The notes under the pieces are model-generated. The model searched no databases. It was not told where the DNA came from and saw only the letters and a program-made list of their open reading frames with translations. This document shows, piece after piece, positions 4,869 through 26,261 of a DNA stretch of 64,000 bases. This DNA is from an uncultured Flavobacteriaceae bacterium. GTDB lineage: Bacteria > Bacteroidota > Bacteroidia > Flavobacteriales > Flavobacteriaceae. The stretch is taken from positions 62,001 to 126,000 of the forward strand of contig CANLXN010000005.1 in the NCBI GenBank assembly GCA_947495135.1, written 5' to 3'. The translations under genes and the position numbers were made by a program. Within the stretch, counting starts at the first letter, position 1. Each line of letters opens with the position of its first letter.

Positions 4869-4959
4869 TTAGTAAAAAATTAAAAGTCTTATTGTATTAC
4901 TTTTCTAGTTCATTTTGATATATTATAGGTTTCATTTACACACCAAAAATTCATCAAGA

Positions 4960-7900: not shown

Positions 7901-8238
7901 GTATCACCAACTTTATCATTACAGATAAGTTGAAGAGGAAACTAGAAGGAGTGTCATTTGAAAATCAAGACGAGTCAGATGAGGCAGTACGAAATATTCA
8001 AAATCAACTAATGAAAATGGATGAAATCGAAATGATGGTGAAGTATCCAGTCGAGGCTTTCACCTCACAGATTTTTCGATTCCAATTAAACCATAATTTG
8101 ATTTTAATGCTTGATTCTTTTGGGCTTGCCAATCCAGCAAAATACCCGAATTTCAAAGCTGTAAAAGAGTTTTTGGATATTAGGTTCAATGTCGCTAACG
8201 ATGGTTCGGGAGAATTAAATCCATTTAAAGACATTTAG
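4960..8238 (+). CDS. Large protein with N-terminal DUF4297/Cap4-like nuclease module
   Basis: This is a 1092-residue, probably cytosolic protein. Residues 12-115 carry NTDATASLRGYHYQ, an acidic EEDI, FRQIKLYSRNFSFSSEEIRK and FVFETN, the pattern of the DUF4297/Cap4-type PD-(D/E)XK dsDNA nuclease module (acidic residues plus Q-x-K). The rest is long, helical and TPR-like around residues 545-650; I see no P-loop. No ATG is available. TTG 4960 is chosen because it gives MNISKLHIFAR, 11 residues before NTDA, exactly as in the homologous protein starting at 22211; another TTG lies at 4915. GNAT and PLD genes follow closely. A defence effector is inferred, not shown. Confidence 0.7.
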   Translation: MNISKLHIFARNTDATASLRGYHYQVLKTLETLIDNYNDEKEDEIYCDFEEDIFQKNEIDGTTKFRQIKLYSRNFSFSSEEIRKCLVHFFMLHVKTDYTFLEKEFVFETNTAVAGVRGNNDAKLLQEWHSNQDSLSDELSQKCATKAKQIITEYIEKQIESLNKDDDNRLVEEAYKVFKGLKDSDWIEFIKKIKWVFKNITSDEEFATLREDIEDKILNLPFQINKDNLPSVFGELHTLIWDKATSTQIEAKKITLEDISGVLLGISNTQDKWYWDIYERWKGVEKIEVFNLGQFYEVIDASRHCRVTNYLTKHKSQWLGLLKLYINSTDDNYKRLAIYEYLWLLLRPIDKLEVPDGDLTGEEEYFRYYFKDFEAFKTARELEDAQSLMNIAVAVGFMGKTNLEGKEIQGWFDQMLETLKNRIDTETDPSKLCHLLENLAGYHLFLNTNRDKKDKNVQEIIEPLYQILEFLEKADFYNVSKLSWRLDDSVELMIETGAEDNIEIIDALSDYGENLGPFVEKRDGSFKSAKVELNKGVKYLNSDVPRLSLKALESFHKAKSKFKNEENFEGYVLALINIAQLYSGIGMNMAAKYYAMGAAWVCIHKDDRKLLKRIADAFGIIFYADFKQGAWMNAMVSSKDYLSARNEFKGTPLDPEKEEMPFKIMADLALVFHLSPRLVPALQVMVNYEIDSLGELGNDFIRPALLKFGETHPTYQTLIPALERQHTDLPLNDLGPIRWVRFNALGIEWKISFPNTYEFTPQAEEFCAIAQITIAEIALSKYDFHLIKGNVNIELEASEDFKAPEQLPSNDTIIWKAWIRYLDSQDGQEIVLNVASCVTAVRVVLSRLSLLPFDDYDVLFETLFKESDLADKTKIEGLYQRMYRYVFKQPSFDRLHRASFNPLPPFNDIDLPKTNKVMEWENSLSEKYDKKTSLKHIEGRFTKMKNIGHITISELVKNKKFIKVLHSLRDEGWQDWQIFLGITNFIITDKLKRKLEGVSFENQDESDEAVRNIQNQLMKMDEIEMMVKYPVEAFTSQIFRFQLNHNLILMLDSFGLANPAKYPNFKAVKEFLDIRFNVANDGSGELNPFKDI

Positions 8239-8241
8239 AAT

Positions 8242-8745
8242 ATGACTATTCAATATATTTTGAAACCTCCCCTGCAGTTTTCAGATACCGAAAAAGAAGA
8301 CTTTGAATACTTGTTGGATAAGCAAGGACAGATAGATAAGGTTGAAGGAAAACTGGAGCGATGCTATAAAGTATGTCTTGTAAAACTAAACGGGGACTCT
8401 ATCGGAATTGGTGCTTTAAAGCAGGTATACAAATCACCTTTTGAATATTCTGGTGTATCTGAGATACAGCACAACTACAACTACGAAATAGGCTATCTGT
8501 TTGTTGACAATGAATCTATTAACAAAGATTACGGAAGCTTGGGTGTTGGTAAATATATTACACGCTTACTATTAAGCCAAGTAACTGGAGAAAATGTATT
8601 TGCTACTACGGAGTCCAATGATGAAAATCGAATGCTTTACATATTGAAATCTTTTGGTTTCAAGGTTTCGGGAAGTCCATACCTAGGTAGGACGACTAAA
8701 AAAAATATTGTTTTAATGACATTGGACAGAAAAAAGATAATGTAA
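8242..8745 (+). CDS. GNAT-family N-acetyltransferase
   Basis: This 167-residue protein has the GNAT fold. The core strand GIGALKQV is followed by YEIGYLFVDNES, the acetyl-CoA loop region GSLGVGKYITRLLLSQV (a Q/R-x-x-G-x-G/A variant), then FATTESNDENRMLYILKSFGFKVSG, the typical N-terminal-to-C-terminal arm of the family. It starts 3 bp after the large nuclease-like gene, so the two are likely co-translated. The substrate is unknown. GNAT proteins occur as toxins, as modifiers of partner proteins and as antibiotic-modifying enzymes; here an accessory or regulatory role in the cargo cluster is plausible but unproven. Confidence 0.8.
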   Translation: MTIQYILKPPLQFSDTEKEDFEYLLDKQGQIDKVEGKLERCYKVCLVKLNGDSIGIGALKQVYKSPFEYSGVSEIQHNYNYEIGYLFVDNESINKDYGSLGVGKYITRLLLSQVTGENVFATTESNDENRMLYILKSFGFKVSGSPYLGRTTKKNIVLMTLDRKKIM

Positions 8746-8770
8746 AAAAAACAAACTCGATTTTACATAG

Positions 8771-9847
8771 ATGAATTTTGAAATAATAAATAACCTTACC
8801 CGAGAAAACCATTTTAAAAAGCTGATTGAAAACTTTAAAGTTTCAGATGAGATTATAATTATTAGCCCTTTTATTTCTGCGGATGAGAATTTTTTTCCTT
8901 GGCGAGATTTTACTTGCCTGAAAAAGATAAAGCTTGTGACTACCTTAAAACCAAAAAGCTTAGACCAATATAACAAAGTACCATTTTTTAAATATTTGTG
9001 TGATTTCTGTAAAACAAATTCTATCGAGCTTGAAATTTTAATTGAAAACTCTTTACACGGTAAAATTTATATTTCAAAAAGTCAAGAAAAGTATACTAGT
9101 GCAATAATTACTTCTGCCAATTTTACAAAGAATGGTCTACGTTTAAATAATGAGTGGGGCACTGTAATCAAGGATAAGATTCAGATAGAGCAATTAGAAT
9201 TTAATGTTATAGATAAGGTTGTTCTTCAGGCCTTATCTGAGAAACAAATTGATGACTTTATACAGGTTCTCAAAAAGAATCCATTACCTAAAGAAAGAAA
9301 TCCTATAAATATTAATCTGTCTAAACATCTTCTTTATAAAACGAATCCACTTAAAGTTCTCGGCAAGGTCAATTATTGGTTAAAACCAATAGGTGTAAGT
9401 GGAGATTTTATTTCTTTTGACCAGGTTTTCGATGAGATTGATAGTAATTTACATTTTTCGAAGACAAGACCAACAGGAGTTATGGTCAATGACATTCTTA
9501 TTGCCTATGCAGTAGGTCATAAAAATATTCTGTCCATTTACCGTGTTAAATCAGAAGTGAAAACTACTCAAATAAAAAATGATAGATGGCCTTATTTTGT
9601 TGTAGGTGAAAACCTCACGCCATTTTATGGCCAAGAATGGAGTAGTTATAACATCGGTATATCAAACCAAAGAGATGAAGTAGTAAAAAATAGGCTCTTT
9701 GACGTGACACCAAGTGGTAAGAATAGTTATGGGAGTTTGATGAGAGGAGCAGATAAATTAAGAGTTACTCCTGAATTTGGACAATACCTTATTGATAAAA
9801 TTGTTAAAATAGATACAGAAATAAGAACTCAATCTAATATTAACTAA
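8771..9847 (+). CDS. PLD-fold nuclease-like protein, possible EVE/PUA-like C-terminal half
   Basis: In this 358-residue protein, residues 1-150 form a phospholipase-D-like domain with one HKD-type motif: LHGKIYIS near residue 96, then TSANFTKNGLRLNNEWG with the Asn/Glu partners seen in PLD nucleases such as BfiI and NgoFVII. Residues about 195-305 contain VNYWLKPIG, GVMVNDILIAYAVGHKN and KNDRWPYFVV, which resemble EVE/PUA-type readers of modified bases (strands, then a W-P-Y segment). If right, it would be a modification-sensing restriction-like enzyme dimerising through the PLD fold. It is the last gene of the + strand cargo cluster and runs convergent to the tra operon. PLD is fairly sure; EVE is tentative. 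Confidence 0.7.
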   Translation: MNFEIINNLTRENHFKKLIENFKVSDEIIIISPFISADENFFPWRDFTCLKKIKLVTTLKPKSLDQYNKVPFFKYLCDFCKTNSIELEILIENSLHGKIYISKSQEKYTSAIITSANFTKNGLRLNNEWGTVIKDKIQIEQLEFNVIDKVVLQALSEKQIDDFIQVLKKNPLPKERNPININLSKHLLYKTNPLKVLGKVNYWLKPIGVSGDFISFDQVFDEIDSNLHFSKTRPTGVMVNDILIAYAVGHKNILSIYRVKSEVKTTQIKNDRWPYFVVGENLTPFYGQEWSSYNIGISNQRDEVVKNRLFDVTPSGKNSYGSLMRGADKLRVTPEFGQYLIDKIVKIDTEIRTQSNIN

Positions 9848-14205: not shown

Positions 14206-16602
14206 TTAAGATGAATATTCTGTGATGGCTTTCTCCATATCTTTATGTTTTTCGAAAAGCCGCATTATTTCTTCGTTTTCTTCGCCGTCTGTGAGATATG
14301 CAGCAAAGACTTTTTTGGGAACTTCTAACCGGAAGATGTTACTCTCCTTTCCAATTTTGATGAACATTTCGGTGTACTTTCGAGTTCCAGTGAGGTTGTT
14401 CTTGATGGATTTTAGTTGGTTCAGGTCGTGACTAGAAAGGTTGAGCCGCTTTTGTAATTCGTCATAACCTTTTTCATTATTCAGACTGTAAATGACTTGC
14501 GTATTTTCTAGTATACTTGCCGAAGTTGAATTATTGGGTAACTGATTAATCGACTGTAAAATGATACCAATGGCACCGTTCTGTTTTCTAATCGCTTGAT
14601 AGTAGAATTCCACACTTTCCAGTACGTTATCGAACTTCAATTGTTTGGCAAACTCATCGAAAAGGATAATGCCTTTTTCAGCACGGTTTCTCCAAATGGT
14701 CCGTTGAATGGCAGACTTAATGAGCTTCAGCATTACGGAAAGGATTTCCTTGTTATCTTTTACTTCATCTAACTCAAAAACGATTAAGCGTTTGTCTTCA
14801 ATTTTGTAAGTCTGGTCTTCGCTTACTTCAAAAAGGAAACTGTATAATCCGTCACCAACATACTCCGACATTATGTGTAAGAAGTTGGTAGTGTTGAAAT
14901 AGTCCTCGTGTATTTTAAGTTGCTGCAGTAGCTGTCCTTGATTAGCTTCGATAAAGGCGTAGAAGTTGTTTAAAGAATGACCCAATTTGGTTTGCTTGTA
15001 GTAATGACGCAAAATCTTTTTTACTGAAACCGATTGCGCTTTGGTCACTTTTAAATCTGAAGCAAACAACTCGAATAGAAACACAGAAAGGTCTTCTAAT
15101 CGCTCTGGTGTGATATCCTTTTGATTGCTGATGTAAAACGGATTGATACCAAGGTTCTTTCCGCTTTCATACCGAAGCACTGTGTATTGCTCAGGATAGA
15201 GTTTAGCAAACTTGGTATACGAACCACCTAAATCGATGATAACGAGGCGCACACCACTTTCAAAATATTGACGTAGGATGTTGTTGGCTAAAAAGGACTT
15301 TCCTTCACCCGTTGGTGCGAAAATGGCAAAGTTCCGAGCTTTGATGCGTTTCTTTCGTTCGTCCCAAACATCCTTGAGAACCGGGATGTTATGTTCACGG
15401 TCATTGAAGATGATGCCTGTTTTATCCGATTTATAATTACTGTTGTTAATCAGCAAGCATAAGGCGTGTTTCAAATCGGTTACGTACACATCCTCATTCG
15501 AAAAATTTGAAGAATGGCAGAAGTAACTATTTAAGAAATAGTTCTTGCGTTCTTCGCCACGAGGATAATAAGGGATGATATCTAGTTCCTTAAACTCGGT
15601 TTTGATTTTGGATGCTATACGGTTGAGTTGTTCAGGATTTGTATGCCAGTAAATAATATTCAAATGCCCTCTAATAACACGAGCACGGTCATCGGCATTA
15701 ATTTGGTCTAAGATGTGTTGTATTTTTCCAAGGACGACTTTGTTCTGTGAACCGAAGTTGGAACTCTTGTTAAGTTCTTCAACTTTCTTATCGAGTAGCT
15801 TGCGCCACTTTTGCTTGTCATCTAGATAGATGATTTGATTGACAATATGATTCTCATTTAAAGTCAATCCCAGACCATCAATAAACCCTTGATGAAATAC
15901 AAAATCGTCTGAAGTAAACTTGTCATTCGTTTTACTCGTTTGTACGCTTTCGCCAAAGCACAATTCGCTATTTACGGCAAGGGCATCAAAGTAATGCTCA
16001 CCGATATTGGCATTGGATTTATCTAGAATAATATCTGTATCAAGACCATTGTTAAAGCCGTTAAAATAGTTGCTGGTAAGCGTATGGATTTCCTTTTCTG
16101 TTAAGGGCAAGAATTCCATTTTTCGACTGTTATTGATAAATGAAACCGAATCACCCACCGCACCAACAAAAGCGTTCACATTATCATCCATTTCCCGAAT
16201 TGATTTTTCAGAAACTTTGCGAAACGGATTTACATATTTGCTGTTATTTAATGCATTGTTTTTGGTGAGAATAAAGAACAGATACGATTGATGTTCCATA
16301 TACTCTCGACCTTTAAAATGTGCGTGTGTTGCTTTTTCAAGAAAGGTTTTGTTAGGTAGTTGCTCCCCTTCATAGTTTTGTTTTATGTACACATCTTGCT
16401 TTTGAACAACACAGCCAGTAGGCAATGATTTTAGTGCCTGAAACCAGGAACCGTGCATATCTTCAAAGTCTTTTTCAGATAAGGAATAGATTTCGGGCAA
16501 ACTGCCTTTATAGCATAGCACCACATTGCCATTGTTGGCAAATACTACATTGTTTTGAATGTCAATGATGGGATGATATGCAGCAAGATTTATTTTATTC
16601 AT
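14206..16602 (-). CDS. traG: TraG, VirB4-type conjugation ATPase
   Basis: This 798-residue protein powers pilus assembly and substrate transport. The start MNKINLAAYHPIIDIQNN (ATG 16602) is the family start; a longer frame to 16743 overlaps traF and was rejected. A P-loop FAPTGEGKSFL lies near residue 440 and Walker B KGIILFDEFAKQL near 640. The downstream segment AIRKQNGAIGIILQSINQLP matches VirB4-like ATPases. It overlaps the traF stop by 8 bp. The N-terminal third is the VirB4-specific region that contacts the membrane complex. Confidence 0.93.
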   Translation of the reverse strand: MNKINLAAYHPIIDIQNNVVFANNGNVVLCYKGSLPEIYSLSEKDFEDMHGSWFQALKSLPTGCVVQKQDVYIKQNYEGEQLPNKTFLEKATHAHFKGREYMEHQSYLFFILTKNNALNNSKYVNPFRKVSEKSIREMDDNVNAFVGAVGDSVSFINNSRKMEFLPLTEKEIHTLTSNYFNGFNNGLDTDIILDKSNANIGEHYFDALAVNSELCFGESVQTSKTNDKFTSDDFVFHQGFIDGLGLTLNENHIVNQIIYLDDKQKWRKLLDKKVEELNKSSNFGSQNKVVLGKIQHILDQINADDRARVIRGHLNIIYWHTNPEQLNRIASKIKTEFKELDIIPYYPRGEERKNYFLNSYFCHSSNFSNEDVYVTDLKHALCLLINNSNYKSDKTGIIFNDREHNIPVLKDVWDERKKRIKARNFAIFAPTGEGKSFLANNILRQYFESGVRLVIIDLGGSYTKFAKLYPEQYTVLRYESGKNLGINPFYISNQKDITPERLEDLSVFLFELFASDLKVTKAQSVSVKKILRHYYKQTKLGHSLNNFYAFIEANQGQLLQQLKIHEDYFNTTNFLHIMSEYVGDGLYSFLFEVSEDQTYKIEDKRLIVFELDEVKDNKEILSVMLKLIKSAIQRTIWRNRAEKGIILFDEFAKQLKFDNVLESVEFYYQAIRKQNGAIGIILQSINQLPNNSTSASILENTQVIYSLNNEKGYDELQKRLNLSSHDLNQLKSIKNNLTGTRKYTEMFIKIGKESNIFRLEVPKKVFAAYLTDGEENEEIMRLFEKHKDMEKAITEYSS

Positions 16603-16873
16603 AATACAAGGCAGATGATTTTTTGTTACTGATAATTCTTGGGAAAACCTTTGCAAATTGAAGTAGCTGCGGATTGAGAGCAAATCGGGTAAGACCGATA
16701 TAAAGCCCTGCATTGAATACAAGTACGCCAATGATAATACCAAAGCTGAATGAGAAGATGATGACTAAAAGTGATGCAATGACAGCTACCATCATTAGAG
16801 CAAACAGGGACACGGGCAATCCAAAAATCATTGCCCGCTTCCGTATGTTTTTATAGACCTCGAATTTCTTCAT
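16595..16873 (-). CDS. traF: TraF (DUF4133), VirB3-like membrane protein
   Basis: This 92-residue protein has two adjacent membrane segments (residues 15-60: FGLPVSLFALMMVAVIASLL, then GIIIGVLVFNAGLYIGL), like VirB3. The gene starts inside the traE stop (TAATG overlap) and ends 8 bp inside traG, showing translational coupling. Confidence 0.85.
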   Translation of the reverse strand: MKKFEVYKNIRKRAMIFGLPVSLFALMMVAVIASLLVIIFSFSFGIIIGVLVFNAGLYIGLTRFALNPQLLQFAKVFPRIISNKKSSALYYE

Positions 16874-17160
16874 TACACAACGATGCCTATTAAGTAAGTA
16901 AAGATGCCTACCACGGCTCCTGCGATAAGTACAAACACCAATACTCTGGTAATTCCTTTCTTCAGGTCAGCATTCTCGCCAAAGAAATGTCCTGCATTAA
17001 ACAGAAAACCGACAAGGAAGATGACACCCAAGAGAATCGGGAAGATGGCTCTTATGGTATCGCCAACATCGTTTACGGAGTCTTCAATACCACCAATTTG
17101 CGCGAAGCTAGGAGCAGTTACAAAGAGTAAAGCCAATAGCATAAGAATTGATTTTTTCAT
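16873..17160 (-). CDS. traE: TraE (DUF4134), VirB2-like
   Basis: This 95-residue protein has a signal peptide (MKKSILMLLALLFVTAPSFA) and two further membrane segments (residues 38-57 and 70-93), the layout of VirB2-like pilin candidates in CTnDOT-type elements. It is the first gene of the tra operon visible here; traA-D-like genes are not upstream, where a divergent amidase gene lies instead. The 172-bp intergenic region should hold the operon promoter. Confidence 0.85.
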   Translation of the reverse strand: MKKSILMLLALLFVTAPSFAQIGGIEDSVNDVGDTIRAIFPILLGVIFLVGFLFNAGHFFGENADLKKGITRVLVFVLIAGAVVGIFTYLIGIVV

Positions 17161-17244
17161 AATGATTTCGATTTAGCCTTACGGCGTGATTATTAGAATT
17201 TTGCGAAATCTATTATGAGAGGATGATTATGTAGAAAATCCCCT

Positions 17245-17274
17245 AAAATTTAACGTAGAGGGCTGTTAAATTTT
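17245..17274. promoter_or_regulatory. 10-bp perfect inverted repeat, candidate operator
   Basis: AAAATTTAAC (17245-17254) and GTTAAATTTT (17265-17274) are perfect inverted arms with a 10-nt spacer, so their centres are two helical turns apart. The site lies between the divergent traE and amidase genes, 85 bp from traE and 58 bp from the amidase ATG, as expected for a dimeric regulator controlling both. Confidence 0.5.
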
Positions 17275-17332
17275 GGAAGATTCCTATGGAAAGAATGAAA
17301 TCATTGCATTTTGTGTAAAACAGAATTTAAAA

Positions 17333-17974
17333 ATGAGAGTTCATCTGCTTGCTATATTTAGTCTAATTACTTGTCTGCTGGTTACGCCAATCCATAGCCA
17401 AAGATTACTGACAAAGCCAATAGTGCTTATTGACCCTGGACACGGTGGAACAGACTATGGAGCAGTTAGCGGTAGCCGTATCAAGGAGAAGGATATCGTA
17501 CTGAACATTGCCTTGAAGATACAGCAATTTAATACACTCGTTTTTGAGAATCGATTTGAAATATATCTTACCAGACATAGAGATACCTTGATATCTCTAG
17601 GCGATAGAAGCAAGTTAGCGCAGGTCTTAAAGGCAGACGTTTTTGTTTCCCTGCATTGCAATCAAGCGGATAACGCTTTCGCGAAAGGACTAGAGGTGTA
17701 TGTTTTTAATAATGGGATTTACAAAAGGAGCTCGACGTACCTAGCCTATCAAATCCAAGCAGAAGCCAAAGAGAAATTAGGCTTTAAAACGAGAGGTATC
17801 AAGCAAGCCAATTTTCAGGTGTTGCGAGAAACTAAATTAGTATGTCCTGCGGTTCTGGTAGAGCTTGGTTTTTTGTCCGCTACGGATGAAGCGGATTATT
17901 TAGAACAGAGTTATAAGCAGGATGCATTGGCTTTGGTGGTTCTGCAATCACTTATTAAATATTTGGAGTTATGA
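17333..17974 (+). CDS. N-acetylmuramoyl-L-alanine amidase (Amidase_3)
   Basis: This 213-residue exported peptidoglycan hydrolase cuts the bond between muramic acid and L-Ala. A signal peptide is present (MRVHLLAIFSLITCLLVTP). Zn-binding and catalytic residues are visible: His in DPGHGGTDYGA, Glu in IKEKDI, His in SLHCNQADN and Glu in VELGFLS. ATG 17333 was chosen over TTG 17273 because it begins the signal peptide. It is divergent from traE, so it likely serves as the wall-opening enzyme for conjugation; many related ICEs use a lysozyme-like protein instead. A palindrome copy (17674-17687) lies inside the gene. Confidence 0.9.
   Translation: MRVHLLAIFSLITCLLVTPIHSQRLLTKPIVLIDPGHGGTDYGAVSGSRIKEKDIVLNIALKIQQFNTLVFENRFEIYLTRHRDTLISLGDRSKLAQVLKADVFVSLHCNQADNAFAKGLEVYVFNNGIYKRSSTYLAYQIQAEAKEKLGFKTRGIKQANFQVLRETKLVCPAVLVELGFLSATDEADYLEQSYKQDALALVVLQSLIKYLEL
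17674..17687. repeat. Dispersed palindrome CGCTTTCGCGAAAG
   Basis: This copy of the TTTCGCGAAA palindrome lies inside the amidase gene and encodes in frame NAFAKG. Confidence 0.65.
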
Positions 17975-18051
17975 AGGAAATATTTTTAGCAATTATAGAG
18001 AGTTTGAAGGAACTGATTGTCCTTTTATTAAAAAGTAAAAAGAAACATTAG
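17971..18051 (+). CDS. Candidate 26-residue peptide coupled to the amidase
   Basis: An ATG overlaps the amidase stop (ATGA at 17971-17974) and opens a 26-residue frame, MKEIFLAIIESLKELIVLLL followed by KSKKKH. The peptide is an amphipathic or hydrophobic helix with a strongly basic tail, the look of a small membrane peptide. Its stop overlaps the 3' end of the convergent 18048-19346 gene by 4 bp. Coupling and composition make it more than noise, but there is no family support. Confidence 0.35.
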   Translation: MKEIFLAIIESLKELIVLLLKSKKKH

Positions 18052-19346
18052 TTATTCCTAAACTGTAAAAATTCTAGATTCATTATATCTGTATCTTGGT
18101 TTATGGGATTAGGATTTTTTAGTCTTAGCTCGTTATTTATCTCTGCTATTAAATCGTTATCAGTAACATTTACTAATAGTAAAGGTTTTATCCATTTTGA
18201 TTTAAATTCATCAAGTTTTTTAAGTCTTTCAATATCATCTATAAACAGCCCATAGTATTTCTTTATTTTGTTTTTAAGCTTCCTTTTGGAGGTATTTAAT
18301 TTAAACATTTTGGCTTCCACAACATAAGTAACAGGGATATTGTCTAATAAAGCATCATATATACAATCAATTTCTATATTACCAAGAAATTTTTTGTTCA
18401 GTTGATATTCAAATCCATATGATTCTAGCTTATTTGCTAAAGCATTAAGTAACAACCCATCCTTCTCCTTTACTATATTGTAAATCTCATTATCGAGTTC
18501 ATAAGGTATAAAATAGGTGAGTTCTCCTGAACATACGGGACATTTTAAGTCTTTCAATTTTTTAGGATTAATCTTTAGTTGAAAGACGCCTCTGTACGTT
18601 CCCGGCTCGCAATTTGAGCATTCTATGAATGCATCCTCCTTACTCGGGAGAATTATTTTTCCATCATACAAAAGCCTAAATAGTTTTAACCTTGACTCAA
18701 AGTTATCTTCACTATTTAATGTGTTAACTAGAACTTGATTTGTATTGTAAAGTCTCCTATAAGAATTATTTACATATTGCTCTTTGATGAATTTTATCCC
18801 CTCAAAGAAGGTATATATGTTTTGTTCATTGACCAATTCATTACTCTTTTTAGGTAAGAGTTGACCTTCAACATAATCTCCAACTTGTTTAAAACTATTT
18901 AAATGCTTACCAATGAAGCCATATTCTTGTAGAAGTTCTATAAGTTTTTGTTCTGAGGTTTCTTCATTAACGAATAACTTTAGTACTTTAAAAATTAATC
19001 TCCATCCTTTTTTATCGAAATCATCGACAAGTTTATCCAAAGGTTTCTTTAAATGCTTTTCAAAAAAATTCTCAAATATTGGTTTGAAATGCTCTATTCT
19101 GTCTTCAATTGAAATATCTAACTCCCTTGTGTAATGTTCATTTCTGTATTTAATAGCATCAAATTCATTATCATTACTATCTTGAATATTAGATATAATA
19201 ATTCTATTTGAAGTATAACTGTAGGGAGACGTCTCTATTCCAAAGTCTATGGTTTCTAGGAGTTCTTCTTTTGATAAGAGGAATAAATTTCTACACGATT
19301 GATTTTCCCAAAAAATATTATAGAAGTTATCTTTTATAAGACTCAT
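18048..19346 (-). CDS. Zinc-ribbon PD-(D/E)XK nuclease-like protein (third gene of cargo operon)
   Basis: In this 432-residue protein the first ~240 residues are helical and of unknown fold. A zinc ribbon follows (CSNC near 244, CPVC near 270). The C-terminal part carries a restriction-endonuclease-like signature: FLGNIEIDCIYDA with Asp, then VTYVVEAKMF with the E-x-K pair, 14-15 residues apart as in PD-(D/E)XK enzymes. It starts 3 bp after the STAND gene and is surely co-transcribed with it. A nuclease partner or second effector is inferred; no family name is assigned. Confidence 0.62.
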   Translation of the reverse strand: MSLIKDNFYNIFWENQSCRNLFLLSKEELLETIDFGIETSPYSYTSNRIIISNIQDSNDNEFDAIKYRNEHYTRELDISIEDRIEHFKPIFENFFEKHLKKPLDKLVDDFDKKGWRLIFKVLKLFVNEETSEQKLIELLQEYGFIGKHLNSFKQVGDYVEGQLLPKKSNELVNEQNIYTFFEGIKFIKEQYVNNSYRRLYNTNQVLVNTLNSEDNFESRLKLFRLLYDGKIILPSKEDAFIECSNCEPGTYRGVFQLKINPKKLKDLKCPVCSGELTYFIPYELDNEIYNIVKEKDGLLLNALANKLESYGFEYQLNKKFLGNIEIDCIYDALLDNIPVTYVVEAKMFKLNTSKRKLKNKIKKYYGLFIDDIERLKKLDEFKSKWIKPLLLVNVTDNDLIAEINNELRLKNPNPINQDTDIMNLEFLQFRNN

Positions 19347-19349
19347 ATT

Positions 19350-22211
19350 TTAGGATTGATTAGCTTTAAACAGTTTAATTTTCTCTTTCATCTCATTTTC
19401 TTTTTTGCTTTTACCAAGATATAGGTATAATGTTTTTGAAATCTCATACATAGTCAATAAGTAACTACTATTGTTTAATGCCATATTTTCAAGAATTTGT
19501 ATTCCAATTTCTTGATTTTTAATGGCGGCATCAGCATTATCTGATATTACATATAGATTGGATAGTTCGTTGTAATATGCAGCTAAGTAAAAATCATTTC
19601 TATTTTTCAGGCTGAGAGACTTATGAAGTTCTATGCCAGATTCTAACAGCTTGATTGCTTGCTCATAAGAACCCGCTATGGCATAAGACTTAGATAGTAT
19701 TCTGTACTCAATACTAAGTTGTTGGTCATCATATAAATTATGTTCCTTTCTAATCTTCTGAACTTTTTTAAAGTTGCTTATCGTACTTAAGAGGTCTTTT
19801 TCTAATAAATATATATTGGATAAATTATTCAGAGTTGTTATAGTCAAATTCAAGATGTCTTTATTATTTTTTTCATATTGACTTAAGGCTTTTTTAAAAT
19901 AATTTATGGCAAGACTATTTTCATTGTTTTCTGCGTAGCACAGAGCGAGGTTATTATAAATAACTCCAAGACTGTTTTTATTTAACTCAGAATAATTTTC
20001 AGCTCTTTTTGCTAAGTCAATTAGTTTATCAAGGTTAGACTTTGCTCCTAAATAAAATCTTTGAGCATACAAAAATTCATTTTCCAAAAGTATTAAGGGT
20101 TGATATAAGCTACTTCTGTATTCTTCTTTAATAGAACTCAATATTGATTCTGCATACTTTAGGTATCTAAATGAGTTTTTGGGAGCATTATACCCTTCCT
20201 CAATTCTTGCTGTTAGCCAGGTTATAAACAACATATTTGAAACAAATGGATTTAATTCTTTCCTTTGATTGTATATGATAACCTCTCTAACAATTTTATG
20301 GATATGTATTCTCTTCCTATCATTACTTATAGCTATTAAACCTTTTTTATCAAGAGAATTGACGACATTGGTAATATGGATTTTGTTCTCATCATAATGA
20401 CTTAAACCATTTATAAGAATAATATCTTCAATACCTATATTATTTGAAGGTAGGATGGATAAGAACTTTAGGTAGTTTATTTCCTTTTCTTCCAAAATTG
20501 GAAGGCTAAACTTTTCAATTAAGTAATTGAAAAGTTTAATAGAATGCGATGCATCATTAATGTCGATTTCAACTTCTAAATCAGCTTTATCCAGTTCCTG
20601 TTCTTTAATAGCATTAAGTACATTAGAAAGTGATAAATCGAAACTGTTTTGTATTGTTTTTGCTATCAGTTCAATAACTAAAATATTATAATCGATTGCT
20701 TCAAATAAAGAGTGGAATAAATGGTCTTGAACTGAATCTCGGTCACAAAAATTCAGATAAACTTGCTTAGCGTCTTGAAAACTTAGAGTAGGTAATTTGA
20801 GACTAGGAATAGTTTTTAAATGACTTCTCGTTAATATTAATTTTTGCCAATTCGATGCTAGTTTTAAAGCTCTAATTTCATTTAATTCATCTGCGGAATT
20901 TTGTATATCTATTATGATAAGGTTCTCTCCATTGATTTTGTTCAATTCGGCAATTAGTAACTCATATGAATCTTTTAAATCAATAATATTAGATGGAGAC
21001 GTTACCTTCAAATTATCTTTTAAAACGTAATCCAGAAGTAATGATGAAAGGATTGAATTATCAACATTTAACCATATTATATGGTCGTACTTCTGAAATG
21101 TTTTCAGATATTTTTTACCAAAAGATGTTTTGCCCATACCCCCTTCAGAGTAAATTGAAAGAATCTTTTTTTCAGATAAAGTAGAATTAACATCTTTTAA
21201 AAAGTCATTCCAACCTAGAACTTCCAAAGAATGAAAATCTGGGGGTAGGTTTATGTATTTTGGTATGTGATTGGAGGGTTTTTGCACCTCACTTTTTAAT
21301 AAATATATTTCATTAGAATGAGCTTTTTGAGTTTCCCTTAGAGCCCTTATGTCTAATTTTAGAGATTCAATTTCAATGTTAAATAGTCTTGTTAATTTAG
21401 TGTTTACTGATTGGAATAACTCATCATCAGTTTGCGTGATAATAGAATTTAAAATTTCATTGTTCAGTTTTCTGTCGGAACTATTTTCTCTCTGGGAGCT
21501 TTTATATATTTCAGAAATCAAAACTTTAAAGAGTAATGAACTAGGTCTTTCGTTAAATTTTATATGCCCTAAAAGTATATGAATTTCTTTTGTAAGCAAT
21601 TCAATGCTCTCTTCTGGTGAAAGTTCATTAAACTCCCAAAAAATACTTTTTACAAAAGGTTCAATGTTGTTTTTTTCTAAGGAGTTTTTAAAATCATCAC
21701 TGATTCTGTTTAGAGTTTCTTTCTCAAACTCTGAAAGCCCCTTTTGTAAAAGCTTAATTCTTCTTTCTTTTACTTCTTTGATAAGAATTTCTTTTACTTT
21801 TTTAATGCATAAATCGAGGAGTTCGCAATCGTTTAATTCTAAGTTTTGAGTCCATTGTTGCAGCAGTTTTTCCCTTTTGGATATTCGAGAATTTGTAGAA
21901 AAACAAAAAGATAATTTTTCGTTTAGGTATTGGTATTTTAAATAAAGTATGAAAAAATTAAAAATAGACTTCTTTATTTCCCTGGAGTTAAGACTAAAAG
22001 AAGAAGTGTAGCATTTAACTTGGGTAAAAACGATTTTATTACCCACTTCCTTAATATCATCCTCTACTTCGGTTAGGGTAATGACATCTTTTTCATCTAT
22101 GAAATTTTCAATCCATTTTTTAAGCACTAAAAGATATTGATAGTAGAACCCCCTATTAGTTGCAATTGCATCGGTATTTACTTCGAATAATTTTATAAAT
22201 TCTTCATTCAT
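19350..22211 (-). CDS. STAND NTPase with N-terminal DUF4297/Cap4-like nuclease and TPRs
   Basis: This 953-residue protein has three parts. Residues 1-115 are a nuclease module (NTDAIATNRGFYYQ, EVEDDI, FTQVKCY, SLNSREIKKS, CFSTN) aligning with the module at 4960-8238. Residues about 325-640 are an NB-ARC/STAND core: P-loop EGGMGKTSFGKK, Walker B-like NLIIIDIQN, sensor KLILTRSH, then a winged-helix region. Residues about 690-945 are TPRs (GVIYNNLALCYAENNENSLA and similar units). Nuclease-STAND-repeat proteins of this plan (Avs and related) sense phage proteins and then cut DNA. Its neighbours are an unknown 696-residue protein and a PD-(D/E)XK protein. The architecture is confident; the defence role is inferred. 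Confidence 0.75.
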   Translation of the reverse strand: MNEEFIKLFEVNTDAIATNRGFYYQYLLVLKKWIENFIDEKDVITLTEVEDDIKEVGNKIVFTQVKCYTSSFSLNSREIKKSIFNFFILYLKYQYLNEKLSFCFSTNSRISKREKLLQQWTQNLELNDCELLDLCIKKVKEILIKEVKERRIKLLQKGLSEFEKETLNRISDDFKNSLEKNNIEPFVKSIFWEFNELSPEESIELLTKEIHILLGHIKFNERPSSLLFKVLISEIYKSSQRENSSDRKLNNEILNSIITQTDDELFQSVNTKLTRLFNIEIESLKLDIRALRETQKAHSNEIYLLKSEVQKPSNHIPKYINLPPDFHSLEVLGWNDFLKDVNSTLSEKKILSIYSEGGMGKTSFGKKYLKTFQKYDHIIWLNVDNSILSSLLLDYVLKDNLKVTSPSNIIDLKDSYELLIAELNKINGENLIIIDIQNSADELNEIRALKLASNWQKLILTRSHLKTIPSLKLPTLSFQDAKQVYLNFCDRDSVQDHLFHSLFEAIDYNILVIELIAKTIQNSFDLSLSNVLNAIKEQELDKADLEVEIDINDASHSIKLFNYLIEKFSLPILEEKEINYLKFLSILPSNNIGIEDIILINGLSHYDENKIHITNVVNSLDKKGLIAISNDRKRIHIHKIVREVIIYNQRKELNPFVSNMLFITWLTARIEEGYNAPKNSFRYLKYAESILSSIKEEYRSSLYQPLILLENEFLYAQRFYLGAKSNLDKLIDLAKRAENYSELNKNSLGVIYNNLALCYAENNENSLAINYFKKALSQYEKNNKDILNLTITTLNNLSNIYLLEKDLLSTISNFKKVQKIRKEHNLYDDQQLSIEYRILSKSYAIAGSYEQAIKLLESGIELHKSLSLKNRNDFYLAAYYNELSNLYVISDNADAAIKNQEIGIQILENMALNNSSYLLTMYEISKTLYLYLGKSKKENEMKEKIKLFKANQS

Positions 22212-22235
22212 TTAATTAGCTCTTCTGTCAAGTAC

Positions 22236-24326
22236 TTAATAAATAGGTTTATCCGACCAATAAAAATTTAGACCACTTATTTTTTCTACAATGGTATGTA
22301 TGTCATCATCTAAAAACTTAGAAAATGGGCTATCTATGTAATTCATACCTGTTTTACTGCAGGTTGCTTTTTCTATTATGTATGACATAATAGGCTTGAT
22401 TTTTCCCTCAATTATATCGTAATATTTTTCAGCTTCATTTTCGGGTATTACGAATTCACAAATTAGCGTATTGTTTTCGTCTCTTGGTGTTGGTTGGAAT
22501 TTATCATCTAGCATTATTCGTTTCAAAAATAAGACTCCATCAAATTGAGCAATACTATTGACAGATGGTTTATCAATAGTTTCATTGAAATTGGAATTTA
22601 AATATTCTCTTTGATTTTCTAACCACTTCCTAAATAAGGTGCGGGTAACGGGTATCTTTTGAAAACTTGAAAGCCATTTATAAAGATTTGTAATATGTCC
22701 ATAGCAGCTTATTCTTACTTCTTTATCTCTCATATTCCAAGCCAATGTAAATGATACAATTGAGTTAAGATTTCTTTCAATCATTTTAAAAAAAATAGAT
22801 TTCAGAGCTCTAACAGTAATCTCTACATCTCCTTCTGGGTTTTCATCACTATGGAAAATGCAAGGTATATTCCAATATTCATCTTTAAAACTGCAGAATA
22901 AGACATCTTCCATTATATTAAGATTTTTACCCTGCCGTTCTATTGCTTTTTTTACTTCAATTATATTAGCTTCTATACAGGAGTGTTTAACATTATTAAC
23001 GGACATAATATCGTAAATAGAAACACTATGACTTTCGTTTGAGAAACCTTCATTTTTATTATGATAGGATACGAGAAGTCTAATTCCATCTTCTTTATCC
23101 ATACTGTGCGGAACTAATTTTTCTAATAAAGTCTTATCTATCTTTTTCTTTTCAAATTGTGATTCAGGTTTATTTATGTTAAAGTACTCGTATATGAGAG
23201 GATTCCCCTGCATATATTTTGTTATTAGATTTTTCCAATCATTTAATGCCAGAGTTCCATCAATTCTAAATAGTTTTTTATAATCACTTTTTCTCCCGAA
23301 ATCAGTCATATTTTTGTCTATTCTGTCAAAATATAATTCAGGTGTATACCCTCTAATAGCACCATCAAAATGAATAAATGTATTCTCCTGTGTGTCATAT
23401 AATGAATGGATATACCTGCATCCAAAAAAGTCTTTTATAGTTGGAGCATTATTTTCTCTAAGTTCTTCTAATTCAAATTCTTTTAGGTGTTTATTATTCT
23501 TCCAGTAAAATTCTGTCGATGAAATCTCATAGTATCCTTTTTCAAAATCGCTACATATATGTTTTGTGAGACCAGGGTTGATTTTTGAAATATCATCATC
23601 ATATTTTGGACCAAACCAATATTCAAATTCTAGGGTTTGTAAAAAATCTGGTGCATAGCCAATCATATCCCAATCTATTGCAAGTTTAAGAGTCACTTTA
23701 TCATTGTTTTTGTGAGTCATAAATTCATCTAAAAACAAATGATGAAAGTTATTATGTCTCGATAATGATTTTCTGAAATAGCTGTGTGAATAGATACAAA
23801 GCGGTAACTTATTGTGTATGAATACACCGTGATATTTATATGTAAAATCTTTTTCTAAATCTTTGACATTTATTAATCCAGCTTTGTCTTTATTTTTTAA
23901 TATAACAAGTTCCGGAAAATAGGCTCCTACAATGTTCTTATCGAAAATAGCTAATGTGCCTGCAGATATGTATTTGTGGTTTTTTGATAAACTACTTTCT
24001 AATATTTTAAAAAGTTCTCCATTGTTTTTATCTAAATCCTCTTTAATGTGTTTAGCCTGACTATATCGCTTAAGATGTAGAATCTGTTCGGATTCTTCAT
24101 CAGTTTCTGGAAGTAATGAAAGTCCTATACTTCTGACAAGTTTTGGTTCAAAATATAAGGCATATGGAATCATACAGCCTATAGGTCTATGCATATCGTG
24201 ACCAATATGCATTGGGACTCCCTCAGTTGCTTTCATCCACATCATATCCTCCATAACAGGAAGAGGAATTAAATAATTATACTTATTTATTCGGTCTGAA
24301 TTTAATACAGAAAATGATTTAAGCAC
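22236..24326 (-). CDS. Protein of unknown family, first gene of cargo operon
   Basis: This 696-residue protein starts at GTG 24326 (the next Met is 25 codons in). I do not recognise it. It is soluble, mixed alpha/beta, rich in aromatic residues, and has no P-loop or membrane segment. Landmarks are GVPMHIGHDMHRPIGCMIP near residue 35, FDGAIRGYTPE near 325 and HSMDKEDGIRLLVSYHNKNE near 410. The GHDMHRPIG stretch weakly recalls the His motif of HK97-type prohead proteases, but I would not call it a protease. It is the promoter-proximal gene, 24 bp before the STAND NTPase, and is isolated upstream by a terminator, so it is an obligate part of the three-gene unit. Confidence 0.6.
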   Translation of the reverse strand: MLKSFSVLNSDRINKYNYLIPLPVMEDMMWMKATEGVPMHIGHDMHRPIGCMIPYALYFEPKLVRSIGLSLLPETDEESEQILHLKRYSQAKHIKEDLDKNNGELFKILESSLSKNHKYISAGTLAIFDKNIVGAYFPELVILKNKDKAGLINVKDLEKDFTYKYHGVFIHNKLPLCIYSHSYFRKSLSRHNNFHHLFLDEFMTHKNNDKVTLKLAIDWDMIGYAPDFLQTLEFEYWFGPKYDDDISKINPGLTKHICSDFEKGYYEISSTEFYWKNNKHLKEFELEELRENNAPTIKDFFGCRYIHSLYDTQENTFIHFDGAIRGYTPELYFDRIDKNMTDFGRKSDYKKLFRIDGTLALNDWKNLITKYMQGNPLIYEYFNINKPESQFEKKKIDKTLLEKLVPHSMDKEDGIRLLVSYHNKNEGFSNESHSVSIYDIMSVNNVKHSCIEANIIEVKKAIERQGKNLNIMEDVLFCSFKDEYWNIPCIFHSDENPEGDVEITVRALKSIFFKMIERNLNSIVSFTLAWNMRDKEVRISCYGHITNLYKWLSSFQKIPVTRTLFRKWLENQREYLNSNFNETIDKPSVNSIAQFDGVLFLKRIMLDDKFQPTPRDENNTLICEFVIPENEAEKYYDIIEGKIKPIMSYIIEKATCSKTGMNYIDSPFSKFLDDDIHTIVEKISGLNFYWSDKPIY

Positions 24327-24369
24327 TTAATGAAATTTAATTTAAAGTTTATAAAACCGATGTTGAGTC

Positions 24370-24402
24370 CAACAAAAAAAGCTGATGAAAATCCATCAGC
24401 TT
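24370..24402 (-). terminator. Intrinsic terminator between phosphatase-family gene and cargo operon
   Basis: A stem of AAGCTGATG (24379-24387) with CATCAGCTT (24394-24402) is followed on the - strand by seven Ts. It ends transcription from the 24487-25602 gene, so the three-gene operon downstream needs its own promoter in the ~50 bp before GTG 24326. Confidence 0.75.
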
Positions 24403-24486
24403 TTGTGAAAATCTATGTCTGGTTTAATCGTCTTAAAGATAGAAAATTAACTGCTATTTTTATTACGGATTCCCATAATTTGTATT

Positions 24487-25602
24487 CTAAATATCTATCT
24501 TCCCCCAAACCACAGGATGCTCACTAGCTGCCACAGTTTTATTGGTAATGCTTTTGTAAATAGTCCATTGCGGGCGTTTTACTGGCCAAACCGCTTTGCG
24601 ATTAAGGCCACTGTCTGTCATCTTTTTGTAAAGTGCTGGCGACAGCAACATATAGTCTTTTTGTTTTATGTTTACGCCTAATCGATATGCGCCTAATCTA
24701 AAGTAGGTGGCATCATCTCCTTCATCAATATCTACTTCAAAAGAGAGGTGTTTTGTAATGTCTTTTACATCGGTTTGCTGTACTAATGGTGACAACGAAT
24801 CGCAATAAGATGGTGCATTAAATGTTCCAGTGATGATGATATTTTTCTTTCCTTCTGATATTAGCTTTTCATAGATGGATGCAATATTCTTAACCTGACT
24901 TTTTCGAATAACATCTGCGGTTTTTATATCTACATCTTGTTTTGCAAGATAAATACCCATTATCCATATCTTTTGAGAAGTGGGTGTGGTGATTTCAAAT
25001 TCAAGTAAATGCTGAAAGGCATCGCTATAACCACCTATCAAATGTGTTTTTACACTTTGTAACTTATAGCTATCTCGTAATAGAATTGCCGTTTCCAATC
25101 CTTTCATATCATTGCTTTGTATGACGAAAGATTGGGTATATGGCTTGCATTTTAGCTCGGGTAGGATTATCTGATTAAACTCTTCAAGAGAGGAACGGTC
25201 TTCCACTTCGTGTAGTAATAAGATATCGGCATTTACATCGGCAATGACTTGGGCTTTATGTTTGGTAGCTAATGGTTTTATGGGTAGTGTTTGTAATGCA
25301 ATCCAACCGTTCCAATTAGTGAGCTCGCTGGCTTTTGTTTCAACGGAGTGGTGTATGCCTTTCATATATAGTAATCCTGCTTTTCTTCGCATTACGGCAT
25401 AGGGTCTTTGGCTTGTTTTTTCAAACCCAATCAAGAAGGATAATTCTCGTATACGGTCTTGTTCCGGCACATTGGTATTTGGTTTTCGCATAAGCGTATC
25501 AAGTTCGGTTATCCAATCGCTCATTGATTTACTTATGGATTTCTTCATAAGGCTCTTATCTCTATGGAAGAGGTTCTGAATATTGTACGTGGCTATTTTC
25601 AT
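24487..25602 (-). CDS. Endonuclease/exonuclease/phosphatase-family protein, degenerate catalytic motifs
   Basis: This 371-residue protein has the EEP fold: start MKIATYNIQNLF (catalytic Asn), LLLHEVEDRSS (Glu), IMGIYLAK, then IITGTFNAPSY and SEHPVVWG. In active members the last two are GDFN and SDHxP; here the Asp of GDFN is Thr and the Asp of SDH is Glu, so activity may be changed or lost. There is no signal peptide. It is 2 bp after the DnaC-like ATPase gene and appears to be a backbone ICE gene. Its substrate (DNA, RNA or phosphoester) is unknown. Confidence 0.75.
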   Translation of the reverse strand: MKIATYNIQNLFHRDKSLMKKSISKSMSDWITELDTLMRKPNTNVPEQDRIRELSFLIGFEKTSQRPYAVMRRKAGLLYMKGIHHSVETKASELTNWNGWIALQTLPIKPLATKHKAQVIADVNADILLLHEVEDRSSLEEFNQIILPELKCKPYTQSFVIQSNDMKGLETAILLRDSYKLQSVKTHLIGGYSDAFQHLLEFEITTPTSQKIWIMGIYLAKQDVDIKTADVIRKSQVKNIASIYEKLISEGKKNIIITGTFNAPSYCDSLSPLVQQTDVKDITKHLSFEVDIDEGDDATYFRLGAYRLGVNIKQKDYMLLSPALYKKMTDSGLNRKAVWPVKRPQWTIYKSITNKTVAASEHPVVWGKIDI

Positions 25603-25604
25603 AA

Positions 25605-26261
25605 TTACTTTCTTTTATCATTCGCATTTTTGTGGAATGCGATGAGATTGAACAATTGGCGCATACGGCTTCGCACCCGATTTCCATAGAGGTCTTCCAG
25701 TTCTTGCGCATTAAGGTTTGTGGTGGCGTGGGTTTTTATATTGGTTGAGATGAACAGTTCGTAGCGAGAGAGAATGACTTCGCCCATCACATTACAATCT
25801 TTACCGTAATGCCTGCCTATGGGTTCTACACCCAAATCGTCAAAACAGAAAAATGAGCCATTGCCGTAATCTTCAATGGTCTTATAACCAAGGTGGTTGA
25901 AGGCAAAGACGATGTTTCTGGACGGAATGACGCTATATGGTCGTTGGAGTGGTACTAGATTCTTCAAAAGTTGCATTAGGCTCGTTTTACCGCATCCAAC
26001 AGGCCCAGAAAGTAAAATACCTTTGTCTAGCTCTATTTCGTTTGCTTCACAGGCCTTTTTGTCTCTTACGAAATAGTTACAAAGCTTCAGAATGATATCA
26101 CGGTCGTCATCATAAATTTTAAAGTGCTTACCAAAAAGCAACTTGCCTTTAGCATCCAGATAGACAAGGATTTTTTGGAAATCGTACTCTACACTTTTCC
26201 CATCAAATGTTCCTATTGAATATTCAATGCCACCTTCGGTTATTTTAGAGGGGTTGACCAT
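25605..26261 (-). CDS. DnaC/IstB-like AAA+ ATPase
   Basis: This 218-residue AAA+ protein has P-loop LLSGPVGCGKTSLMQ near residue 70, Walker B GSFFCFDDLG near 125 and arginine-finger-like YGNRVRSRMRQLF near the C-terminus. It is in the size range of helicase loaders (DnaC) or IstB. It overlaps by 17 bp the upstream gene for a DnaD-like protein, so the pair probably loads the host replicative helicase on the excised, circular element. There is no transposase partner, which argues against IstB. Confidence 0.82.
   Translation of the reverse strand: MVNPSKITEGGIEYSIGTFDGKSVEYDFQKILVYLDAKGKLLFGKHFKIYDDDRDIILKLCNYFVRDKKACEANEIELDKGILLSGPVGCGKTSLMQLLKNLVPLQRPYSVIPSRNIVFAFNHLGYKTIEDYGNGSFFCFDDLGVEPIGRHYGKDCNVMGEVILSRYELFISTNIKTHATTNLNAQELEDLYGNRVRSRMRQLFNLIAFHKNANDKRK

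Follow-up and report, generated by a model that had tools for sequence, protein, structure and literature searches.

We analyzed a 64,000-nucleotide stretch of DNA from an uncultured Flavobacteriaceae bacterium (contig CANLXN010000005.1, positions 62,001 to 126,000; this whole stretch is hereafter called the window), with emphasis on three genes in a cargo site of an integrative and conjugative element (ICE). Their products of 696, 953 and 432 aa are called P1, P2 and P3, in the order of transcription. It is well supported by sequence comparison that the core of this locus is a two-gene unit, P1-P2, in which a known kind of executioner is joined by an undescribed partner; P3 is probably a local add-on and not a part of the core. 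P1 (22236-24326, GTG start) is a member of an undescribed protein family and consists of an N-terminal domain (~1-110), a conserved core (~110-390) and a C-terminal domain (~395-696). P2 (19350-22211) consists of a Cap4-type nuclease (~1-215), an NB-ARC-like STAND ATPase (~326-660) that includes a winged-helix/MHD-like part, and TPRs (~736-930). All three open reading frames (ORFs) lie on the minus strand, separated by 24 bp (P1-P2) and 3 bp (P2-P3), which confirms the co-directional arrangement and the gaps given in an earlier sequence-only reading of this DNA. That reading had also assigned to the middle protein a nuclease start, a P-loop and TPRs, all of which were recovered here (PF14130, SEGGMGKTS and TPR_12, respectively).

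The association of P1 with P2 was observed at four loci of Flavobacteriaceae. A scan of species genomes seeded with exact 8-residue patterns, which detects near kin only, yielded four relatives of P1 (loci L002, L003, L004 and L005), and P2 stands straight behind P1 in L002, L004 and L005, at gaps of 24, 51 and 24 bp. The gene order is the same throughout the paired loci, the window included, in three different settings: L002 occupies the same ICE site as the window, L004 has a radC homologue nearby and adjoins an Mrr-nSTAND3 gene, and L005 has no ICE backbone homologue within its 18 kb. Identity among the four paired loci is 58-85% for P1 and 50-71% for P2, and the synonymous divergence (dS) is 1.0-2.9, one P2 pair being beyond calculation. 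The ratio of nonsynonymous to synonymous differences (pN/pS) is 0.14-0.46 across all pairs, including those with L003, indicating that both P1 and P2 are under purifying selection. In total, 15 loci with full-length P1 were collected, including the window, and P2 follows P1 in 4 of the 11 that have visible downstream DNA; this is the fair count of pairing, rather than 4 of 15, because downstream DNA is not or hardly visible in L047, L049, L051 and L052. In a tree of 14 full-length P1 proteins, the four paired proteins and that of L003 form one starred clade of five, and two changes are needed to explain the pairing.

The domain make-up of P2 is that of a nuclease joined to a switch and to repeats. 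P2 matches the Cap4_nuclease family PF14130 (E=2.6e-5, 25.0 bits; cut-off, 26.2), NB-ARC (E=0.0026, 17.5 bits; cut-off, 23.5) and TPR_12 (E=4.9e-9), and its residues 11-406 match the PADLOC model of LmuA, PDLC03848 (E=7.5e-10). It contains a nuclease motif EVEDD...QVK, followed by motifs that we take to be Walker A (SEGGMGKTS), Walker B (LIIID), TR and an MHD-like HIHKIV; the nuclease motif, Walker A/B, TR and the MHD-like motif are kept in five of the five aligned members. A profile search of 391 genomes of the order (E<=1e-20, two candidates scored per genome) gave matches in at least 7, own genome included. The six other genomes comprise two with whole-length relatives (L040 and L041, the latter split into two ORFs) and four that match in the nuclease part only; the P2 alignment found no relative in viral contigs. 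The relative in L040 is 37% identical over 905 aa, with the nuclease best kept (49%) and the TPR part least (26%), a contrast that fits an effector end versus a sensor end. It closes a co-directional run (L040:3723-12115) in which OLD-like and UvrD genes are followed by those for PRTase-CE and NADAR, so that we read L040 as a putative P2-type executioner with a different front end.

Each known system that P2 resembles also differs from it. Like Avs (AVAST) proteins, P2 has an N-terminal nuclease, a central STAND ATPase and C-terminal repeats; however, it matches no model but LmuA at E<=1 in the PADLOC library, which presumably includes Avs models, its ATPase is nearest to NB-ARC, its repeat part is short and it is paired with P1. 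The effector-switch-sensor layout with Walker and MHD-like motifs is shared with bacterial NLR-related proteins (bNACHT and kin of NB-ARC/AP-ATPase), whereas P2 is NB-ARC-like, not NACHT, and has a partner protein; it should be noted that bNACHT25 is also described as bearing a PD-(D/E)XK effector (PMC12169576). The nuclease of P2 is of the LmuA type, as in Lamassu, but neither P1 nor P3 has an SMC or LmuB match in Pfam or PADLOC, and P2 carries its own STAND and TPR parts. DUF4297-HerA is likewise a two-gene unit with a nuclease of the same family; in P1-P2, by contrast, the ATPase is in the same chain and the two libraries give no HerA match in the unit. Unlike a CBASS with a Cap4 effector, P1, P2 and P3 have no SAVED or CD-NTase match (Pfam, PADLOC). 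In the L040 operon a P2 homologue is present, but the PRTase-CE and NADAR genes occupy the place of P1. Assignments to Avs, Lamassu, CBASS and HerA-DUF4297 were thus rejected by the features tested, and a word-based literature search, which is no substitute for a sequence search, recognized no published system as P1-P2.

P1 is the undescribed member of the pair. Its best Pfam match is not meaningful (E=0.22), NCBIfam gives only a 37-residue match (E=0.0044, 16.5 bits; cut-off, 265), PADLOC gives none at E<=1, and PHROGs gives none at E<=0.01 for P1 and six other members scanned. At E<=0.1, Pfam has no family that two or more of 11 members share, and a profile search for solved structures found none (best E=2 and 0.38). 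Among 11 diverse full-length members there are 44 invariant columns, 36 of them within residues 151-390, including D218, E233, T271, W275, E285, E287, E288, R304, H307, H319, D321, R325, R335, K351, R354, D356, W364 and E380. Distant members keep a CxxC...CxC motif in the C-terminal domain, seen in 6 of the 11 rows (L023, L026, L047, L048, L049 and L052); the other five, the window, L002, L003, L004 and L022, have it in degenerate form.

A first AlphaFold model of P1, made with 7 rows, had a pLDDT of 51.6 and no usable match. The second model, with 14 rows, reached a pLDDT of 80.5 and a pTM of 0.65, so the structure prediction proposed earlier for this protein did yield a fair model, and Foldseek found no match to it in PDB at E<=0.001 (best, TIPRL, E=0.097). 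Many invariant residues are placed on successive strands (268-278, 281-290, 300-311, 316-327 and 348-359), arranged in the model as would be expected for a ligand or active site; around E233 the model is uncertain (below 50 at 227-242). A significant fold match came only from the viral library: a 181-aa protein (BFVD A0A7U3HSL9) at E=1.3e-6 and 15% identity.

The N-terminus of P1 provides a lead toward prohead proteases. It contains GxPxxxxHDxxRPxG, which resembles these enzymes, and residues 13-64 weakly match the Peptidase_S78 profile. In hhalign, the probability is 34% and the score is 30.6, versus 23.1 or less for 400 column shuffles and 15.8 for the reversed profile. His43, invariant in 11 of 11 rows, is placed on His65 of HK97 gp4, which we take to be catalytic; unlike the prohead protease, however, P1 has no conserved Ser, none being invariant in its N-terminal domain among the 11 rows. 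The S78 family PF04586 is matched by 1 of the 11 members at E=0.084, which is what chance would give with 11 proteins tested. Among 1460 segments, the best 40 for the P1 profile include no S78 protein; of the P1 proteins, only that of L003 (E=1.0) comes near the top when the S78 profile is run on the same segments. Because these profile-to-sequence searches fail to bear out the hhalign score, the likeness stays an unproven lead, and P1 cannot be called a protease. A protease that feeds a nuclease does have a precedent, described for AVAST and Hachiman (PMC12799240).

The P1 family, in full-length and short forms, is found on prophage edges, plasmids and ICEs, mostly without P2. Screening by P1 itself gave 2 of 249 family genomes, and a profile screen gave at least 8 of 395 phylum genomes, own genome included in both counts; the latter is a lower bound, since scoring was limited to two candidates per genome. 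Deeper profiles added full-length P1 in L022, L023 and L026 and in viral contigs L047-L052 and L057, of which L050 and L057 have an identical match and probably represent one phage. In prophages (L049, L050, L051 and L057), P1 is directly behind a tyrosine integrase, near genes that we take to be cI-like and CII-like. P1 of L048 adjoins serine recombinases and a presumably DUF262-like gene. In prophages related to phage P2, antiviral genes are already known to gather in hotspots close to the integrase (PMC9122126). In L026, P1 adjoins a patatin gene; its ORF is likely over-long at the start, and only the patatin match at 225-445 is relied on. P1 of L022 is followed by two small co-directional genes (L022:8001-11049) for proteins of 153 and 162 aa, the latter with a hydrophobic C-terminus; no relatives of either were found among the ORFs of 26 compared loci.

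There is also a short form of P1, ~345 aa, that corresponds to residues ~110-390. It occurs in L028 (a related ICE), L009, L024, L025 and L053, on three P. aeruginosa plasmids (one protein accession), in four near-identical viral contigs (L018-L021) and, damaged, in L027; a distant short form is present on four Leptospira plasmid records, one of which was taken for comparison (L119:2126-6358) and shows it within a run of three hypothetical genes. In L009, a P-loop-bearing gene of the HNH type, which we read as a candidate STAND gene, lies divergently to the short P1, and in L028 (5419-11379) the cargo of the related ICE consists of a HipA pair, a 640-aa protein, the short P1, a small protein and a TIR protein. 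The short form has no fixed partner, because its neighbors change case by case. Of the outcome named earlier as refuting a defense unit, homologues that occur independently and outside defense islands, one half is observed: P1 is found without P2, and P2 relatives are found without P1 in the ~19.5 kb examined, but wherever the setting is readable these copies keep to mobile-element or defense-gene settings.

The position of P1-P2 in the ICE was defined by comparison with sister elements. The sister ICE L090 is 90% identical to the window at 24375-25987 and 88% identical at 16501-18018, with quite different cargo between; the identity ends at 24375 and 18018, so the insert is ~18019-24374. This exchangeable segment has a low GC content, 0.278-0.297 (1-kb steps, 18001-24000) versus 0.37-0.40 in the adjoining DNA. 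One border of the site is an ICE backbone gene on the minus strand (24487-25602), without a match in Pfam and presumably endonuclease/exonuclease/phosphatase-like. The other is a plus-strand backbone gene (17273-17974) that we take to be amidase-like, as in the earlier annotation. Behind the gene 24487-25602 there is a terminator-like stem of 12 pairs on the minus strand (24404-24377), the only minus-strand one among five terminator-like sites in the 6.8 kb scanned (shuffle mean, 1.9). The terminator reported upstream of the three genes thus exists; however, its DNA is common to the sister ICE L090, so it belongs to the ICE backbone and not to the cargo. In L002, the backbone terminator directly precedes P1.

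Of 239 family genomes, 26, including own, have homologues of the gene 24487-25602, at 28 listed places; 27 of these places lie in other genomes, and 20 of them were taken for comparison. The amidase gene is visible in 13 of these 20 sister stretches (the other 7 have no amidase homologue in view), and 12 of the 13 have ORFs of >=80 aa between the two borders, L101 having none. P1, P2 and P3 are absent from all 20 stretches (E<=1e-5). Ten cargo proteins from nine loci were run against Pfam: clear defense-type matches are ApeA (L090), nSTAND3 (L094) and E2 with ThiF (L097), other matches are SMC/AAA (L092), DUF2326 (L093), AAA_5 (L102) and a transposase (L098), and three proteins have no match (the 1061-aa protein of L090, L095 and L096). 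In L002, the site holds P1-P2 and, between P1-P2 and the homologue of 24487-25602, a divergent operon encoding a patatin and a DncV-like cyclase, by content a CBASS separate from P1-P2. The differing cargo of sister copies, the swap in L090 and the CBASS in L002 indicate that this is an exchangeable cargo site that leans to defense genes.

Two further observations concern this group of elements. The 1061-aa protein of L090 (L090:11190-14375) adjoins the ApeA gene in the cargo site of that ICE. In the window, a second defense-type module is present in the same ICE at 4915-9847 on the plus strand. Its leading 1107-aa protein has an N-terminus of the Cap4 type (LmuA, E=1e-8) and a long C-terminus that is unrelated; relatives of this protein occur in L042, L043 and L044. 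The module also encodes an NgoFVII/PLD-type nuclease and a 167-aa protein, presumably acetyltransferase-like.

The reading that we favor, tentatively, is that P1-P2 is an abortive-infection module of two genes, which a Bacteroidota ICE carries as exchangeable cargo. P1 would be a free-standing defense-type protein that meets the infection and senses or acts via its conserved core, and resting P2 would be held closed by its TPR and NB-ARC-like parts. P2 may read a change in the state of P1 (active, occupied or disabled); ATP binding would then lead to assembly of P2, and the clustered Cap4-type domains would cut DNA, stopping both phage and cell. P3 would be a locus-specific extra nuclease-like gene outside of this core. 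We infer that P1 feeds P2, and P1 is taken as what P2 listens to because the pairing is kept at high divergence. The most likely role of P2 is that of an ATP-switched DNase, which would kill or halt the infected cell; it is assigned by analogy with DUF4297-HerA, described as abortive and degrading host and phage DNA (PMC11291478), with nuclease-bearing Avs proteins, described as causing abortive DNA degradation (PMC12931631), and with bNACHT proteins (PMC12169576).

Several observations weigh against this reading. Seven of the 11 loci whose downstream DNA can be seen have P1 but no P2, and L003 has P1 alone inside the paired clade. P2 is absent (E<=1e-10) from four of four P1-only genomes searched whole (G609, G444, G492 and G468), and P1 was not found beside the P2 relatives of L040 and L041 within the 19.5 kb examined. 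The PF14130 and NB-ARC scores of P2 are both under the Pfam cut-offs. The TPR part of P2 is 57, 56 and 48% identical to those of the three P1-paired members, compared to 60, 58 and 51% for the nuclease, and conservation at this level does not favor a phage sensor under rapid change. The whole-genome search for P2 also found none in four of four short-form genomes (G202, G502, G396 and G424), and in a ninth genome, that of L004, it recovered the known copy.

A somewhat less probable explanation is that two independent defenses travel together, P2 sensing by its own TPRs in an Avs- or NLR-like manner and P1 being a separate single-gene defense. Such a history would fit the occurrence of each protein without the other and the accumulation of unrelated defense genes in the site, for example, the CBASS beside P1-P2 in L002; it fits poorly the order and the short gap kept at dS >=1 in four loci and three settings, and the TPR part of P2 is small (~200 aa). 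Also unlikely, and slightly more so, is a guard arrangement, in which P1 would be a complete first-line defense and P2 a back-up abortive layer, set off once a phage protein binds P1 or disables it. P1 alone on prophages and in L003, the core form on plasmids, the limitation of pairing to one P1 clade with two changes, and the coupling of a P2 relative to PRTase-CE and NADAR beside an OLD-UvrD pair are all consistent with guarding; however, protection by P1 alone is an assumption, and guarding and triggering are indistinguishable by sequence. A bolder and rather improbable version is that P1 represents a new mobile anti-phage family of free-standing proteins with an unmatched fold and a conserved core of its own that resembles an active site, guarded by an NLR-like DNase in one lineage of Flavobacteriaceae, possibly with an N-terminal prohead-protease look-alike that would bait phage capsid assembly.

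P3 (18048-19346) is an orphan. The two CxxC pairs (at 243 and 269) and the EID...VVEAK motif reported for it earlier are present, and from these motifs P3 is read as a putative PD-(D/E)XK-like nuclease. Pfam assigns it to no family at E<=1; credible relatives were not found among 395 genomes of the order or 218 of the phylum (overlapping sets), nor any relative in plasmids, phages or viral contigs. A match in G732 (E=5.7e-4) consists of 79 residues in the tail of a TauE-like permease ORF and was dropped as a chance hit. It is therefore highly unlikely that P3 is the required second nuclease of a three-gene system: its 3-bp gap, same strand and same low GC favor such a system, but P3 is missing from the other three P1-P2 loci (L002, L004 and L005) and from all collections searched. 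The sequence-only reading is supported in its view of a defense-type cargo with an undescribed first protein beside a nuclease-STAND-TPR protein, and not in its three-gene, two-nuclease operon; P1 and P2 stay together in four loci, and P3 is never with them elsewhere. Equally improbable is an element-maintenance or addiction cassette of the ICE, in spite of a nuclease and a partner on a mobile element and of HipA-type genes near relatives of P1 or P2, given that the cargo is exchangeable and absent from 20 of 20 sister stretches, that the architecture is that of an immune switch and that P1 alone is kept on prophages.

The analysis splits a testable core, P1-P2, from an accidental neighbor, P3. 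The interest lies mainly in P1, the family of which is absent from the four family libraries searched and occurs in Bacteroidota, on plasmids of Pseudomonas and Leptospira and in prophages; P1 alone is a small, clean target for a defense screen. If it is true that P1 protects alone and that P2 answers to its fate, this pair would offer a simple model, in bacteria, for guarding by NLRs.

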